From contig BLLK01000051.1 in the NCBI GenBank assembly GCA_021927905.1, positions 930,001 through 994,000 on the forward strand: DNA of 64,000 bases, given 5' to 3'. A program made the position numbers and the translations under genes. Source of the DNA: Chaetoceros tenuissimus. Lineage: Eukaryota; Bacillariophyta; Thalassiosirophyceae; Chaetocerotales; Chaetocerotaceae. Shown here in pieces: positions 37,724-44,968 of this stretch. The notes under the pieces are model-generated. The model was given only the letters and a program-made list of their open reading frames with translations. It made no database searches and was not told the DNA's origin. The stretch's first letter is position 1, and every line of letters begins with the position of its first letter.

Positions 37724-39347
37724 TTAAGCATCATGAAATGCACCATCCTCGTGGAAAGAATCTTTCACATGCTGAGTATTATTAATACCAGCTGCACTCT
37801 TTGTGTACTTTGCAAACGCTGCCTCGATAGCACTGTGCTTCTCTACTCTTACACCCTTTCTTGCACGCTTCTTGGTTCCAAGTACCATAAGGAAGATATG
37901 TGCTCCGACTACCCCAAGAGAAAACATGGAAGATGCAAAAGTTGGAGATGGCTGACCTCCATAGGAAGCTGGGTTGAAAAGTCCACTCCATCCCTTGTAT
38001 CCCATAAAGATAAGATGGAAAGTTGCAAGAAGAATCGCAAGTGGTGATACATAATTGTAGACAGGCTTGAGCTTCATCCAAGATCCTTCCTTGATCAAAG
38101 AACGGATGGTAAGCATAGTCACAAGTACAAATGCAATGACTCCACATGCAAGACTGAGTTCGTAGTTTCCGTAGAAGCGTCCTTTGTTGTCAGCATCGAA
38201 CCACTTGGACTTGTATTGTGGAATAGCAACCAAGCTACCCATGAATGCGTGAGTCATGAGGAAGAAGAAAGAAATGACACCAGTCTCAGTCTTGAGTGAT
38301 ACAAGATCTACGAGCATGGACTTGAACGAGATGGATTTTTCCCAACGAGTGAAGATGTTACGAGCAAGAGCCCATGTGATCCATGGGAAAATGAAGGAAA
38401 AGACTGGTACAGCCATGATTACAGCACATACTGCTGCATTGATGGTATCAAGTCCATTGGTAGCACCTGCGCCAGAGAAAGTGTTCATGATAGCAAGAAG
38501 GTTACCTGCGAATGGTGCAGCAGACATCATCCAAAGTGCGGTCCATCCAAACGCTTTATCTGCGATGTAAAGTGGGATCATAGTATCTGGGTATTTTCCG
38601 TTTACATATTGTGAGTAACGAGAGAATACGTATCCAAATGCAGTAGCGTATACTGCGAAGGAAAGCCATGCAGCATCATACCAACGTTCGACTTCAGCAC
38701 GAGTCATGAGGCGAGCAGCAACTTCAGCAGATAGAGTATTCTTTGGAGCTGGTTGCCATACGATGCCTGGGATATCAAGTGCAGGTTGTGTGGATGATGT
38801 AGATGAAGTGTAGATGATAGCATTTTGGTTGCCCTGTGAATATATGATAGATTGTATTTGGGTTAGGAAATGACTTTGTTCAATCAACTATGATGTGAAT
38901 ATGTTGATGAGATATACTTACAGTGTGACCAGAGACATCGTAGCTGCTTAGTCCAGTGACTTTCCATACAACTTGATCTGGAGTAGATGCAACTGCAGCA
39001 GCTACAGCCACTGCGCCATCGAAGCTTTCAGTTTGTGGATCTGGGTTGGACCAATCAATGAACTGAAGTAGTGGAGCCTTTCCAGAGGAGGAAGAGATGT
39101 TTCTTGCGCCTTGAAGAGCAGCAGCCATGAGTGAAGCGTTTTCAGAGAGTTTTCTTCCACAGTACATTACAAAAGATGCATTTGTAAGGACTTGGCTCAT
39201 ATCTTCAGCAGACATGGAGAAGAACTTGGTAGCAGAGATTTGTTCAACAGATAGGGTTGCATTAGATGTAGGGATGGTTGCTGATTCAAGTCCTTGAGTG
39301 AGAGAGTTTCCAAACTCTCCTTTACCAATTACTACAATCTTTGTCAT
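37724..39347 (-). CDS. STEAP-like metalloreductase (F420/NADP domain plus haem membrane domain), two exons
   Basis: Exon 1 is 39347-38922; the intron begins GTAAGT and ends TTCACAG at 38834; exon 2 is 38833-37724. The protein is 511 residues. The N-terminus is a dinucleotide-binding F420-like fold (KIVVIGKGEFGNSLTQGL). The second half has about six membrane helices. Candidate haem-axial histidines are H337 (MTHAFMGSL) and H415 (ATFHLIFMGYKGW), in the same local contexts as STEAP. STEAP enzymes reduce Fe(III) and Cu(II) at membranes using NADPH, flavin and haem. It lies just downstream of an FRE/NOX-like ferric reductase with the same first codons and promoter, so both probably serve iron uptake and respond to iron supply (inferred). 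A 25-bp tandem duplication lies ~185 bp upstream. Confidence 0.8.
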
Positions 39348-39530
39348 GATAGAGATCTGTTTTTGTTTGAAGTGTGGAGAAAGAAACAGTGAGTATAATT
39401 TGTCATATGTTTAGTTGATGAGAGGAATATGAAAGAGTTTATGAATTTTGGACGTACCTTGTAATAAATATTTTCTTATTCAGTGCGTTGGGAGCGTTTC
39501 AATTTGTGCAAAAATGAAATAATGAGAGGA

Positions 39531-39580
39531 GGAGTGAAGAGCCCCTACGCATGGTGGAGTGAAGAGCCCCTACGCATGGT
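39531..39580. repeat. Perfect 25-bp tandem duplication upstream of STEAP-like gene
   Basis: A 25-base unit beginning ggagtgaagagcccctacgc is repeated exactly at 39531-39555 and 39556-39580. The homologous upstream region of the FRE-like gene (near 42810) lacks it. It could duplicate a regulatory site or simply be slippage. Confidence 0.85.
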
Positions 39581-40248
39581 GACTTGCTTTTCAGATGGAT
39601 TGGGACGAGCGCGGAATGGAAGTCTTTCCAGTCCAGCTTCAGAGATCGAGGTGGCGCGACTTGAAAATTCCATCTAGTTAAAAGTAGATGACGACACCAA
39701 GTACGTGTCGAGTTTTACGTTGAAGTTGTGTTTCTTCATTTGCGGTATACACTGAATTACTCCCTAGAGGTATGAGATTCATTTCAATTATTTGAATTGA
39801 AAGAAGGGTCTATCATCAATTTAGAGAATGGCCCCGAATACACATTTAGTTGTAAAATATGTTACTACTGATTTTGTATGTTGGTTGATATATTTACCAT
39901 GACAAGATTCTGAATTTCTCTTGCCAGTTCAAGGAAGCAAAATTTGAAGTTTGTTACACTGAACGTCTAGGACGTTTTTGCAACTTCCTTTCCAAAAGTC
40001 AGAACTTTTTAGTCGTCTACGTCAGTTTTCAAAGAGAGGCACGTTGAGAATGGAAAAGCAATTTCTTTGATTATTATGCAAGAAAATTTTCTCCACAATT
40101 AATAAGTGGCCAAAGATTATCAAATAGATTTATATAGAATTAGTAATTCAACTTTCATGTACTCTATCTTTGAAAATTTCAATGTTATAGAGTTTCTCCG
40201 TCTGATTCTTCTTGCAAATGGGAATGAAATCGGGCTCTGGGACTTTAC

Positions 40249-40605
40249 AGCCATTCGTACTTGTCGCTGGTATGATAGAGTAAGTATCACAAAAAGGGTG
40301 TGTAGTGATTCGTCTTCCCACATACACTCTCGTAGTGAAGCTTTGGTATGTCCATGTAAGATTTTATAACTTTTCTTTTTCTATCCGCCTTCTTGCCTTT
40401 CCCAGCTTCCTTTTCCTTCTTTTCCTGATAAGAGAAAGTGATGGGAATCTAGTAAATTTAAATTGAAGAATGGAGTCAATTACTTGCTTGAATATAGAGC
40501 TGAATAGTTTATTTAAATCCAATTTAACGTGATAACATTGCTCTAATCGAGAATGTAGGAAGTCACAGAAGACTATGAAATCCAGTATCTTAGCTAGTCT
40601 CAATA
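40249..40605. repeat. Dispersed direct repeat, copy 1
   Basis: Matches 43224-43566 with few differences and small indels, in the same orientation. The two copies flank the FRE-like gene. Left edges diverge before 'agccattcgtacttgtcg'; right edges diverge after 'agctagtctcaata'. It contains no long frame. Copies may be relics of the event that duplicated the reductase promoter or a small element. Confidence 0.85.
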
Positions 40606-40735
40606 TCGTGGTGGTGAAACAACAAAAAATAAACATCAATTGTGTTTCGGAATTCTACTGTTCTACTACTATTTACTATTCATTATCATAAGTGAAAGAA
40701 ATACCTACTATATAAGTTCACTATTTCTTTCCAAT

Positions 40736-42658
40736 TCAATGGCCTCCCTCGCCACCGTAAAATGAAGAATTATTCTTTTTGCATAACTCCTCTACAGCAT
40801 TCTTGAAGGATGCGCTACCCTGGCAAAATACGTCGGCCTCACTGTCTATCTCTTTGCGTAGATCGATACGATCATCCAAAACAGTCAAAGAGCGAGTACT
40901 TGAATTCAAATTATGCATACTAGATGTCAAGGATTGAGGCAATATGCCGACTTCACCAGTATTGGACAGATGAAGATCAACTCTCTTGGCAAAATGTTCA
41001 TCGCATTTCTGAAGTATCGATGCAAGAGTTACAGTTACCCACTCAAAGAGATCAAGATCTCTCGTGGTGTAGATGATTTTGATGAGAGAAAAAGTGTCAC
41101 GAGAAGATATAGAAATATGTTTATTGGATCCGGCCCACAAAAGGAAATCTAGAATAAAGTTGCACGCAGAACCTGCTCCAACCAATATAATGTTTCTACC
41201 AGAGACTTGTTGACTCTCAAGAGCCGATTTCAACTGGAGTGACATTTCTCCAGGAATTGGTCCACGGATAATGTAGTCTGGGCTTTCTTCGTACATCCTT
41301 TTCGTATGAGAAAAGGGCTCACGCTTACCAAGACGAGGAGTACGAGCGTCACGAAATACACGAATGACGCACGCTGTATCCCACTTCATGCTTAAGTTTG
41401 GATTATCTTCAAATACAGTATCTAAATCCTGCGAAGATACATGATACTCGAAGCCTTCCTTGTCGAGAGCGGCAATATCTGGAATCGGCAAATCCAGACG
41501 ATTTTCAAGGCATGTGAAAATATGTTTCTCCTCCAACACAGCAGACTTCTTCATAATGATGGTGTAATGCGGAGCGATAAACTTTGAACTTTTGAATTTC
41601 GATACCCAGTAAAGAACCATGTAATCTTTTCCTAATGGCATCCTAGTCACCTCAGGGAGAACGTCACGGCGCCAGAAAGAGCTCCAAACAAATGCATCAA
41701 TGCAGTAAATGACAAAGATAGGGGTATTCAAGATCCATGAATGAGGGTGAGAATGACGTCTCACAATGTCCACAAAGTACACAATATTGATGAGCCGATG
41801 AAGCTGGATGGCTGCATGCCAACGGGTAGCAAGCCATTTTACACTCAAAGGCATGAGAATCATTAAGAAAAGAGTCATCTCTACCAAACGAAATACATCG
41901 TCAGCTTGTAGGCCCATCTGCTTCAACTCGTTGTTCGCATCTCCAGGCCAGCAACCTGGGACGTCTTTAACAGAGCACTTGACTGGTGTTCTCTCAGAGG
42001 CAGGCCACTCCCAAACTCCAGGAATCATCTTGGCTGTATAACCATGGGTAATACAAGGAAATAGGATGCTCCAGATGTGCAAAAGCGTGAGTACACAAAG
42101 GCCGATGCCATTGTAGTTGTGAAGACGATTATTGGCTTCGACTACGTTAGCACAGTCCAACAAGTACCGAGCTACGAAGGAATCATTCATGAGCCAATAT
42201 TCTAGACTTTTGAGACGAGTAATGAGAAGGAAGTTGTAGCACAGGATCGCATATCTTCCACTAATGCGTGCGAGGATGTCATACAAAACCACCGACCATG
42301 GACCAGGCTTGAATCCAACGAGTCTATCGCTCCCTGCAGATCCAGCTCCAATAGAAAATGTTTGGCGAGGCCAAACGTTCCATACGAAGCGATCAACAAT
42401 TGCAAGGCCAGTAGTTGTGATGAACATAAACCACATGAATGCTTCATATGTGATGATTGGAGTTGGGCGTCTTTTGCCAATTCCTGCTTCATCTTTTTCG
42501 ACAGGACGACCAAGGTCAAGCTTTACTTCTTTGATAGTAGAGGTGTATTGTACTGTTCCATCACCACTACTTCCATCACCAATTTCGAGTCCTTGTTGTG
42601 AACGAGTAAGTGACGAGTTGCCAAACTCTCCTTCGCCGATTTCTACAATCTTTGTCAT
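40736..42658 (-). CDS. Ferric reductase / NADPH-oxidase-like membrane protein
   Basis: A 640-residue frame. Membrane helices carry haem-ligand pairs in the FRE/NOX pattern: HNYNGIGLCVLTLLH with 13 residues between the histidines, and a later pair in QLHRLINIV...VRRHSHPH. The second half is FAD/NAD-domain-like (APHYTIIMKK, RNIILVGAGSACNFILDF), although the usual HPFT and GGTGITP motifs are not obvious, so it is divergent. The first ~24 residues (MTKIVEIGEGEFGNSSLT) copy the start of the neighbouring STEAP-like protein, where they belong to an F420 domain; here they are a vestige with no fold behind it. It reduces extracellular iron or oxygen across a membrane. It is in tandem with the STEAP-like gene. 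Confidence 0.8.
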   Translation of the reverse strand: MTKIVEIGEGEFGNSSLTRSQQGLEIGDGSSGDGTVQYTSTIKEVKLDLGRPVEKDEAGIGKRRPTPIITYEAFMWFMFITTTGLAIVDRFVWNVWPRQTFSIGAGSAGSDRLVGFKPGPWSVVLYDILARISGRYAILCYNFLLITRLKSLEYWLMNDSFVARYLLDCANVVEANNRLHNYNGIGLCVLTLLHIWSILFPCITHGYTAKMIPGVWEWPASERTPVKCSVKDVPGCWPGDANNELKQMGLQADDVFRLVEMTLFLMILMPLSVKWLATRWHAAIQLHRLINIVYFVDIVRRHSHPHSWILNTPIFVIYCIDAFVWSSFWRRDVLPEVTRMPLGKDYMVLYWVSKFKSSKFIAPHYTIIMKKSAVLEEKHIFTCLENRLDLPIPDIAALDKEGFEYHVSSQDLDTVFEDNPNLSMKWDTACVIRVFRDARTPRLGKREPFSHTKRMYEESPDYIIRGPIPGEMSLQLKSALESQQVSGRNIILVGAGSACNFILDFLLWAGSNKHISISSRDTFSLIKIIYTTRDLDLFEWVTVTLASILQKCDEHFAKRVDLHLSNTGEVGILPQSLTSSMHNLNSSTRSLTVLDDRIDLRKEIDSEADVFCQGSASFKNAVEELCKKNNSSFYGGEGGH

Positions 42659-43675
42659 GTTAGAGATCTATTGTTGTCCGAAGCGTGAAAAAGAATAAAC
42701 AGTGAGGATAATATGTTGAGATGGAATATTCTACAATTATGCGTTTTGGATGTACATTTTTATACTTGAAAATGCAGGTGCGCTGGAAGCGTTTCAACTG
42801 TGCAAAAAGGAAATAAAGAAAGGATGACACTTTCTTTTCAGATGCCCAAATAGTCTTTTCAGTCAAGCTTCAGAGTTCTGGAATATCCTTTAGGAAAGTG
42901 AAAATGACGCATTGGAGATACTTATATTGAAGTTTTTTTCTTCATTTTGCTGCATACATTGCATCAGTTCGTAATTAATCTTTATGTAGAGGTTTGAGAT
43001 TTACTTGGAGATTTTTTCATGAAAGAAGAGTCCGTCATCAAATTTAGAGAATGGCTCAGAATTCAAACATTGTTAATCACTAATTAATTTACTTATCGTA
43101 TTTTGAGTAGGGTCTGCTATTTCCTCTCCTGTATCTTAGCTAGGTTCATAGCTATCTTGGCGCCTTTTACCTCATTCATTCTTATTTCATCTATGATGAT
43201 GGATCAGATTTTGGGATTTCTCTAGCCATTCGTACTTGTCGCTGGTATGATAGAGTGAGTATCACAAAAAGGGTGTGTAGTGATTCGTCTTCCCACATAC
43301 ACTCTCGTAGTGAAGCTTTGGTATGTCCATGTAAGATTTTATAACTTTTCTATCCGCCCCCAGCTTCCTTTTCCTTCTTTTCCTGATAAGAGAAAGTGAT
43401 GGGAATCTAGTAAATTCAAATAGAAGAATGGAGTCAATTACTTGCTTGAGTATAGAGCTGAATTGTTTATTTCAATCCAATTTAACGTGATAACATTGCT
43501 ACTCTAATCGAGAATGTAGGAAGTCACAGAAGACTATGAAATCCAGTATCTTAGCTAGTCTCAATAGCTATCATGGCATCATTCACATCACACATTTCCA
43601 TTTTGTGTAGTCTACTTCATGTTTTATTACAAAAACTTCCAATATTCAATTCATGTCAGCATTAATAAATTGACA
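42659..43675. other. Spacer with duplicated promoter and repeat copy 2
   Basis: Starts with the FRE-like promoter, which matches the region upstream of 39347, then holds the second copy of the dispersed repeat (43224-43566). An earlier ATG at 43619 is in frame with the fibrillin gene. Nothing else seen. Confidence 0.55.
43224..43566. repeat. Dispersed direct repeat, copy 2
   Basis: Counterpart of 40249-40605. It lacks about 14 bases present in copy 1 near 'cttctttttc' but is otherwise nearly identical. It lies upstream of the fibrillin gene. Confidence 0.85.
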
Positions 43676-44968
43676 ATGTGGACGGGGCTTGATCCAAAGA
43701 AAGCGAGTGCTATGGTAGTAGTACTGCAGCTAGTACTACTTTTTTGTACGGCGACTACTTCTTGTGCCCTTTCCATAAAATCTTCTTCCTCATCACAAGC
43801 TACTCGCAGAAACTGGTTTACTAAATGTATCACTGCATCGTCTATTATTTTAGAAACAAACAGCCCCATGAGTGCCTCTGCCGAAGTCGAAGCTCTTCCA
43901 AATGAACTACGACAGTACACAGCTCTGGCTCCTTTAGGCGCTGCTACATCGACTGGTGAGAAACTGACCAATCTGTCATTACAACAAATAGCCGAGACAC
44001 TCGCACGGGACTTGGAGTTTGGAGCCAATGACAACGGAGGCTACTTCATATCGGGTGACTTGACACCACAAATATTTCGTGATGATTGCACATTCATAGA
44101 TCCAACAAACTCGGTCTCTTCATTGAGTAGATATCAAAATGCACTCAAAATTCTATTTGAGCCTGAATCATCTTATGTGCACTTGCTAGATATGTCCATG
44201 AATGAAGAAACGAATGAAATTTATGCAAAGATTGAAAGTGGAGGTATACTTCAATTGCCATGGAAAGCTAGAATTAGTACATATCAAAGTGACATTGTAT
44301 ATAAAATCGATCACGAGGGGTTGATCTTGTCTCAAAGTCAGGTATGGAGTATACCCGCTTCACAAGCCTTGAAAGAGACATTTACTCCATCTTTTCTCAA
44401 TCCTCCATATTCCAATATGGCCAAACCCGATGATGAGCCAGAAGAAGTGACTAAATTATTTGAGTTAGTGAATGGTCGTGATGTTGATTCCTATTCGCAA
44501 GAAATGAGATTTGAAATTGCAGACTTGATTACTGAGATTGTTGATAAGCAATATTCTTGGAATAGAAATGATTTGGAGGGAAAATGGGCACTTGCATATT
44601 TACAACCTGGACCTAATGGAGGAGGAATAGATCGAAGAATTCCTTTTCCAGAATTGCCTTTCAATCATAACTTTCAGATTTTCACAACCGACTCAGTCAC
44701 AAATGTAGGTGAACTTCTAGGTCCTTTGTTGGAAGTTCGAGTAGGTGGATCCCTTGTTGAAGACGATGTAAGTAGTTTGTCTACACCAAAGAGATTCACA
44801 GCAAATATTGAGAATGGTGGAATTTGTGCTGGAAACTTTGACAAATGCATCCCACTTCCAATCCGAGGAGAGGGTCTCTTCGACGGGGTTTATCTTGGAA
44901 AGAGACTTCGAATAGGTCAGAATTTGAATGGTGGAGGTGCTCGTGTAGTACAAATCAAATTGAAATAG
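43676..44968 (+). CDS. Plastid lipid-associated protein (fibrillin) with N-terminal SnoaL-like domain
   Basis: A 430-residue frame from MWTGLDPKKASAMVVVLQLV, a signal peptide; an ATG at 43619 would add 19 residues before it. After a Ser-rich transit-like stretch, residues ~95-200 form a SnoaL/DUF2358-like domain (LARDLEFG, YFISGDLTPQIFRDDCTFID). Residues ~285-430 are a PAP/fibrillin domain (LEGKWALAYLQPG, GKRLRIGQNLNGGGARVVQI). Fibrillins bind lipids in plastoglobules and thylakoids. The presence of both domains in one chain suggests a stress- or lipid-linked plastid role. The plastid cleavage site is not sharply defined (CALSIKSS). Confidence 0.8.
   Translation: MWTGLDPKKASAMVVVLQLVLLFCTATTSCALSIKSSSSSQATRRNWFTKCITASSIILETNSPMSASAEVEALPNELRQYTALAPLGAATSTGEKLTNLSLQQIAETLARDLEFGANDNGGYFISGDLTPQIFRDDCTFIDPTNSVSSLSRYQNALKILFEPESSYVHLLDMSMNEETNEIYAKIESGGILQLPWKARISTYQSDIVYKIDHEGLILSQSQVWSIPASQALKETFTPSFLNPPYSNMAKPDDEPEEVTKLFELVNGRDVDSYSQEMRFEIADLITEIVDKQYSWNRNDLEGKWALAYLQPGPNGGGIDRRIPFPELPFNHNFQIFTTDSVTNVGELLGPLLEVRVGGSLVEDDVSSLSTPKRFTANIENGGICAGNFDKCIPLPIRGEGLFDGVYLGKRLRIGQNLNGGGARVVQIKLK

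Follow-up and report, generated by a model that had tools for sequence, protein, structure and literature searches.

A STEAP-like gene (STEAP-A) has very probably undergone a partial duplication in which its 5' end became fused in frame to the main part of a distinct FRE/NOX-like gene, giving a chimeric gene, and we strongly infer that the transfer ran from STEAP to FRE. Both genes lie on the minus strand of the window, by which is meant the whole 64-kb stretch of DNA that was analysed. The parts are arranged in the order STEAP-P-B-FRE-P-B, where P is the presumed promoter region and B is a block of DNA further upstream, as follows:

37724..39347, minus strand: STEAP-like gene A (STEAP-A), 511 aa; the splice model gives one 511-aa frame
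39347-38922, minus strand: STEAP-A exon 1, 426 nt by the modelled splice, with a presumed Rossmann-type start
38921-38834, minus strand: modelled STEAP-A intron, GTAAGT..CAG
38833-37724, minus strand: STEAP-A exon 2, membrane domain
39303..39347, minus strand: STEAP-A codons 1-15 (MTKIVVIGKGEFGNS), from which the captured start was likely derived
39348..39842, minus strand: 5' leader of STEAP-A and its presumed promoter (region P); the DNA upstream of FRE runs collinear with this stretch
40249..40607, no strand assigned: copy A of distal block B, lying on the upstream side of STEAP-A and ~130 nt beyond the FRE stop
40736..42658, minus strand: FRE/NOX-like gene, putatively chimeric, a single open frame of 640 aa
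42614..42658, minus strand: FRE codons 1-15, start codon included, probably captured, MTKIVEIGEGEFGNS
42659..43065, minus strand: leader and presumed promoter of FRE, both probably captured; similar to the STEAP-A upstream DNA
43224..43568, no strand assigned: distal block B copy F, matching block B copy A

No tRNA was found within the 64-kb window by a tRNA search run in the bacterial setting.

The shared 5' end of the two genes

An earlier note on this DNA had claimed that the FRE-like and STEAP-like proteins start almost identically and that the bases upstream match as well, and both observations hold. The first 45 nt of FRE and STEAP-A are identical at 39 of 45 positions, while the runner-up ungapped match to this start, on either strand of the window, reaches 26/45. 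In a gapped protein alignment of FRE residues 1-36 with STEAP residues 1-32, 20 of 36 positions are identical (E=6e-6), SLT and QGLE included. The comparison of FRE nt 46-200 with STEAP, in which 98 of 1000 shuffles score equally high, does not rise above shuffled sequence. Consequently, the end of the match is uncertain, falling somewhere between codon 15 and codon ~20, the latter limit coming from the protein alignment rather than from the DNA. Since the match thus ends within the 426-nt STEAP exon 1, the event is not the 5' exon duplication that the earlier note had proposed; in addition, FRE is a single open frame.

Alignment of the upstream DNA by BLASTN gives 72.5% identity over 233 columns (39304-39533 versus 42615-42827, E=1.7e-30), a match that takes in the first 15 codons as well as the proximal upstream sequence. 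Beyond it lie collinear matches at 39621-39647/42852-42878 (27 nt, 88.9%, E=1.9e-4), at 39765-39842/42987-43065 (77.8%, E=5.8e-11), and, within block B, at 40249-40605/43224-43566 (92.8%, E=2.3e-155). The collinear region extends for ~0.9 kb on the FRE side and ~1.3 kb on the STEAP side, with intervening stretches that no longer align. Because the DNA homology continues through non-coding sequence, convergence of the two proteins is excluded.

A second STEAP copy elsewhere in the genome, STEAP-B, carries the same 5' end: its first 45 nt are identical to those of STEAP-A at 43/45 positions and its upstream DNA at 128/196. Within the 200 nt adjoining the ATG, STEAP-A and FRE are identical at 122 of 181 aligned sites (67%) and differ at the other 59. 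Given this similar divergence, the capture seems to date from about the time of the STEAP-A/B split; if so, the open FRE frame has persisted equally long. In the whole genome, a codon-degenerate pattern for the start occurs at three places (STEAP-A, STEAP-B, and FRE) and its reversed control at none, and a whole-genome search reports the proximal part of P at three loci. A gapless promoter-box pattern found only the STEAP-A promoter in the genome and missed that of FRE, so this pattern is uninformative about other genes. No FRE was detected on the STEAP-B contig, and none appeared among the ORFs in the 8 kb surrounding STEAP-B.

The two reductases and the FRE paralogue

The assignment of the donor comes mainly from its second exon. 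A profile of three exon-2 members, which takes in a third, distant STEAP-like member besides STEAP-A and STEAP-B, matches the STEAP2, STEAP1, and STEAP4 chains with E values from 1.5e-10 to 5.5e-8. A search with STEAP-A alone, for which the exon-2 frame carried 18 extra residues from the intron at its front, matched no STEAP other than STEAP2 (E=0.017). Two histidines of exon 2, His195 and His273, are invariant in all three aligned members and are candidate heme ligands. Exon 1 of STEAP-A has a glycine-rich start and no Pfam match; the distant third STEAP-like protein (L003) has an F420_oxidored match above the cut-off at its N-terminus.

For FRE, the Pfam scan gives a weak match to PF08030 (Ferric reductase NAD-binding, NAD_binding_6) with E=0.0013 and 19.3 bits against a cut-off of 22.2, and a paralogue of FRE on contig C33 matches the same family, also weakly (E=0.0049, 17.4 bits). 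PF01794, the Ferric_reduct membrane domain, is absent from the FRE protein scan up to E=10 and from the 14 genome matches. No PDB sequence match was found for FRE, and NCBIfam gave nothing for FRE, for STEAP exon 2, or for the longer paralogue piece. The structure models are poor (mean pLDDT 40.1 for FRE and 33.4 for STEAP exon 2); at this low confidence, the FRE model predicts six long helices ahead of residue 330 and, after them, a mixed domain at the C-terminus. The reading frame is unbroken across the junction, with 640 codons counted from the captured ATG. As the next in-frame Met is only at residue 75, within a helix predicted with low confidence at 71-95, the captured ATG is probably the translation start of FRE.

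The earlier note had also claimed that the duplicated upstream DNA and first codons stand before a different reductase, and this claim is borne out. Beyond its N-terminus, FRE does not significantly resemble STEAP exon 2 (BLASTP E=0.074; profile comparison probability 0.9%) or the remainder of STEAP exon 1 (next best E=0.33). Furthermore, the C33 paralogue, which matches FRE in two stretches with 56% and 44% identity, lacks the captured N-terminus, and its upstream DNA gives no match to the captured upstream sequence. It begins MTKRKEGKNR, ~13 residues ahead of the point that matches the start of predicted helix 1 of FRE, where FRE itself has 70. A form of FRE without this start, which the earlier note had proposed seeking in other diatoms, is thus present within the same genome and favours capture; this pre-capture form is known only as this one paralogue, split over two frames.

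Origin of the captured start and of block B

Taken together, these results indicate that the 5' end was most likely STEAP's originally, because it is found at three loci, two STEAP and one FRE, because STEAP-B has no FRE neighbour, and because the C33 paralogue lacks it. Sequence identity is by itself symmetric, and it would fit equally a history in which the N-terminus and promoter were first those of FRE and then passed to STEAP. However, the start is present in two STEAP copies, one of them on a contig with no detected FRE, and in STEAP it occupies the beginning of the presumed NADP-binding fold, the region where the third STEAP-like protein matches F420_oxidored. Together with the FRE paralogue that is devoid of this start, these observations make the reverse direction extremely improbable.

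If the transfer was from STEAP to FRE, the duplicated piece would have comprised distal block B, promoter region P, the leader, and the ATG with the first 15 to ~20 STEAP-A codons, and a linker of roughly 40 codons would bridge the captured codons and the FRE/NOX-like body. Transcription of FRE would now begin at a STEAP-type promoter, and its translation at the captured ATG. Since only the beginning of the presumed NADP-binding fold was taken, the added residues would be a passive cytosolic tail rather than a working NADP-binding domain. Less surely, the event may have been a tandem duplication whose breakpoints lay within both genes, in STEAP near codon 20 and in an older FRE, beside block B, near its start. 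One such duplication would give STEAP-P-B-FRE-P-B in a single step, with subsequent loss of the older full FRE copy; this step is deduced from the order of the parts alone, and a search beyond block B found no remnant of such an older copy.

The same order is predicted, and P and B would again be collinear over ~1 kb, if the whole STEAP gene and its upstream DNA had been duplicated in tandem and FRE had later landed in the second copy, replacing its body from codon 15-20. However, no STEAP remnant is seen after the junction: in addition to the shuffle result given above, comparisons with later starts are equalled by 703/1000 and 696/1000 shuffles. Nor does the 3' flank of FRE match that of STEAP (best E=0.33), and therefore no trace of a full STEAP copy is seen. 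As this history also requires an additional insertion and the loss of most of the STEAP sequence, it is unlikely. Another explanation, that two loci were stitched together in assembly at the near-identical block B, draws on the 331 identical sites among the 342 aligned between its copies (40249-40607 versus 43224-43568). Outside block B, however, the 5' match is ~30% diverged and in frame with FRE, a pattern that mis-joining of near-identical reads would not explain, and such an artefact is very improbable.

Capture by partial duplication leaves block B to be considered in its own right. Its copies differ at 11/342 sites, far fewer than the 59/181 in the promoter (P=3e-20), which suggests that block B was later converted or recopied between its two places; in the proposed history, it would have been homogenised or recopied after the duplication. 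The apparent age of block B is not that of P, a difference that a single event does not explain. Block B was rejected as a mobile element, with only two copies reported in the genome, and as a gene, with no Met-started frame of more than 25 codons in the six frames of either copy. Copy A does contain one Met-less frame open for 80 codons, the counterparts of which in copy F contain stops.

The position of block B upstream of both genes, as well as its low divergence relative to P, would also be expected if it were a control element of the two genes whose likeness is maintained by selection and not by conversion. However, its boundaries are sharp on both sides, it has no Rfam match, and the folding of copy F is not unusual (z of -0.37 and 0.07). 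Moreover, whole-genome searches report it twice only, and not at STEAP-B. Selection as a control element is thus rather doubtful. A broader proposal, still somewhat less likely, is that, through the captured promoter, two different membrane reductases have become a co-regulated pair, with the copies of block B kept alike, by repeated conversion or by selection, as a shared control element.

Comparison with known systems

Two scans for relatives on viral contigs gave no match, and a scan of prokaryote genomes with the STEAP alignment yielded 39 pattern stretches, none of which was confirmed. In the main text of a C. tenuissimus transcriptome paper (PMC12305248), neither "ferric" nor "STEAP" occurs, and STEAP has no whole-word occurrence in the main text of a diatom-centred paper from the literature on diatoms, STEAP, and ferric reductases. 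No description of this locus was found in the literature consulted on diatom STEAP, ferric reductases, iron-responsive promoters, promoter capture, and chimeric genes.

STEAP-A resembles the STEAP metalloreductases in its exon-2 profile, which matches STEAP2, 1, and 4, and in the invariant His195 and His273, but differs in having an exon-1 domain without a Pfam match. FRE resembles the FRE/NOX superfamily in its predicted six-helix part and C-terminal domain (both at low confidence) and in its weak NAD_binding_6 match; unlike that superfamily, it has no reported PF01794 match and carries an N-terminal extension of probable STEAP origin.

The locus offers a clear natural case in which the donor, a second donor copy, and an uncaptured paralogue are found together in one genome, and in which a gene appears to owe its upstream DNA and start codon to another, neighbouring gene. 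Should both genes respond together, the locus would show how one rearrangement can connect an additional electron-transfer route to a response that an alga already has. Chimeric genes formed by partial duplications are known in Drosophila (PMC5460883). Compared with those described there, the event here is old, with 59 of 181 upstream sites changed, only 15-20 codons were taken, and both partners look like membrane reductases. The likeness lies in the architecture: in the Drosophila genes too, the 5' end and its regulatory DNA come from one gene, which is kept, and the 3' part comes from a neighbour that has the same orientation. The present locus is a well-preserved, otherwise ordinary chimeric gene by partial duplication, the product of a kind of event familiar in other eukaryotes.

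Shared 5' ends of the two reductase genes

The STEAP-like gene and the FRE/NOX-like gene are arranged head to tail, both on the minus strand, with FRE about 1.4 kb upstream of STEAP-A in a window whose GC content is 38.7%:

37724-39347, minus strand: STEAP-like gene (STEAP-A), 511 aa, one modelled intron at 38834-38921
40736-42658, minus strand: FRE/NOX-like gene (FRE), 640 aa, single open frame

An earlier note reported that the two genes share their first codons and upstream DNA, and this observation is confirmed. The first 45 coding bases are identical at 39 of 45 positions (the runner-up 45-base match within the window reaches 26/45); of the six mismatches, two alter the protein (V6E, K9E) and the remaining four are synonymous. 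The protein match extends over FRE residues 1-36 and STEAP residues 1-32 (20/36 identical, E=6e-6). In BLASTN comparisons, the leader and proximal upstream DNA are 72.5% identical over 233 columns (E=1.7e-30), and beyond them lie two short blocks (27 nt, 88.9%; 81 columns, 77.8%) followed by an extended distal match, block B (92.8% over 360 columns, E=2.3e-155). All of these upstream matches are collinear and are separated by DNA that can no longer be aligned. At 39528-39577, the STEAP-A upstream region carries a 25-base tandem duplication, where the FRE copy is gapped. The term "exon" duplication used in the note is incorrect, since the match stops at codon 15-20, inside the modelled 426-nt STEAP exon 1.

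A three-member STEAP profile matches the STEAP2, STEAP1, and STEAP4 chains; the STEAP-A exon-2 frame by itself, run with 18 preceding intron-derived residues, matches only STEAP2 among the STEAPs (E=0.017) and reaches just E=0.16 against PF01794. FRE has no match to PF01794 or in PDB; its sub-threshold match to Ferric reductase NAD-binding is also seen in a paralogue on contig C33, and calling the gene FRE/NOX-like is reasonable, though only tentatively so. For STEAP, the shared start is presumably the beginning of an NADP-binding fold, with its glycine-rich motif. No such fold follows the start of FRE in the alignment; consequently, the captured start there is most likely a passive tail.

Direction and age of the probable capture

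Within the genome searched (41,027,912 bases, 68 contigs), FRE upstream DNA as a query finds at least three loci (counts in this search are lower bounds, and very common words are skipped): FRE itself, STEAP-A (73%), and one site on contig C16 (70%). The last belongs to a second STEAP gene, STEAP-B, whose exon-2 protein is 86-87% identical. A degenerate DNA pattern for GKGEFGNS/GEGEFGNS, with one mismatch allowed, matches exactly three starts (STEAP-A, STEAP-B, and FRE), and the reversed control pattern matches none in the genome. No FRE match was found on C16, nor, by eye, any FRE-like ORF among those listed in 8 kb around STEAP-B. A distant third STEAP-like gene (L003:5072-6436 on C38; F420_oxidored match over the cut-off) lies about 1.1 kb beyond the window end, about 26 kb from STEAP-A.

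Apart from FRE itself, the C33 paralogue is the genome's sole FRE match, with 56% identity in one frame and 44% in another. It starts MTKRKEGKNRLISFESILW, its similarity begins only at FRE residue 65, and upstream of it there is no match to the FRE DNA. Its two overlapping frames (L002:2084-3836) may reflect a short intron, a frameshift, or an assembly error. Given that this paralogue lacks the start and that STEAP-B shares it with STEAP-A, the start was most likely STEAP's originally and was later added to FRE, which supports the note's proposal that a STEAP 5' end was placed before an unrelated ferric reductase. In FRE the captured start is followed by a linker of about 40 residues, whose DNA, as part of the FRE-upstream query, has no other match in the genome. 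Since the next methionines (residues 75 and 78) fall within the first predicted helix (71-95, low-confidence model), FRE probably uses the captured ATG.

Across exon 2, 291 of 368 third codon positions are identical between STEAP-A and STEAP-B, as are 52/74 intron sites and 128/196 sites in the 200 nt upstream. Over the same upstream distance, FRE matches STEAP-A at 122/181 sites and STEAP-B at 113/181, and some upstream DNA common to STEAP-A and FRE is not found at STEAP-B. These values indicate that the capture is about as old as the STEAP-A/STEAP-B split and that the captured DNA probably came from the STEAP-A locus. The shared coding stretch does not have the length needed to test for selection; FRE has kept its frame open since the capture, which suggests that it is a used gene.

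Block B

The two reported genomic copies of block B (40249-40607 at STEAP-A and 43224-43568 at FRE) are identical at 331 of 342 aligned sites, with gaps of 3 and 17 bases, and are thus far more alike than the 200 nt adjoining the genes (Fisher P=3.5e-20). This is best fitted by a likely recent conversion or recopying of block B over an old duplication. Selection on a shared element could also have kept the copies alike; block B has no match to RNA families, no long Met-started frame, and no unusual folding.

In the FRE upstream region, an imperfect 55-base direct repeat flanks most of block B: 43127-43180, on its promoter side, resembles 43542-43596, which spans its outer edge (score 48; best among 2000 shuffles, 30). 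The former resembles the STEAP-A copy more weakly (score 30, equalled by 10 of 2000 shuffles). The repeat is a trace of an older rearrangement. A divergent ORF with a DUF2358 match (43619-44968) adjoins this region, and because its first ATG is about 50 nt from block B, block B together with P, the leader and presumed promoter region, might be a two-way promoter.

A possible route to the chimera

A tandem duplication with one breakpoint near codon 20 of STEAP and the other within an FRE gene adjoining block B would in a single step yield the order STEAP-P-B-FRE-P-B; the original FRE copy would have been lost afterwards. Comparisons revealed no remnant of either the original FRE copy or another STEAP body. 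Partial duplications have given rise to chimeric genes in Drosophila (PMC5460883). The kind of event is thus already known, and FRE is a further case.
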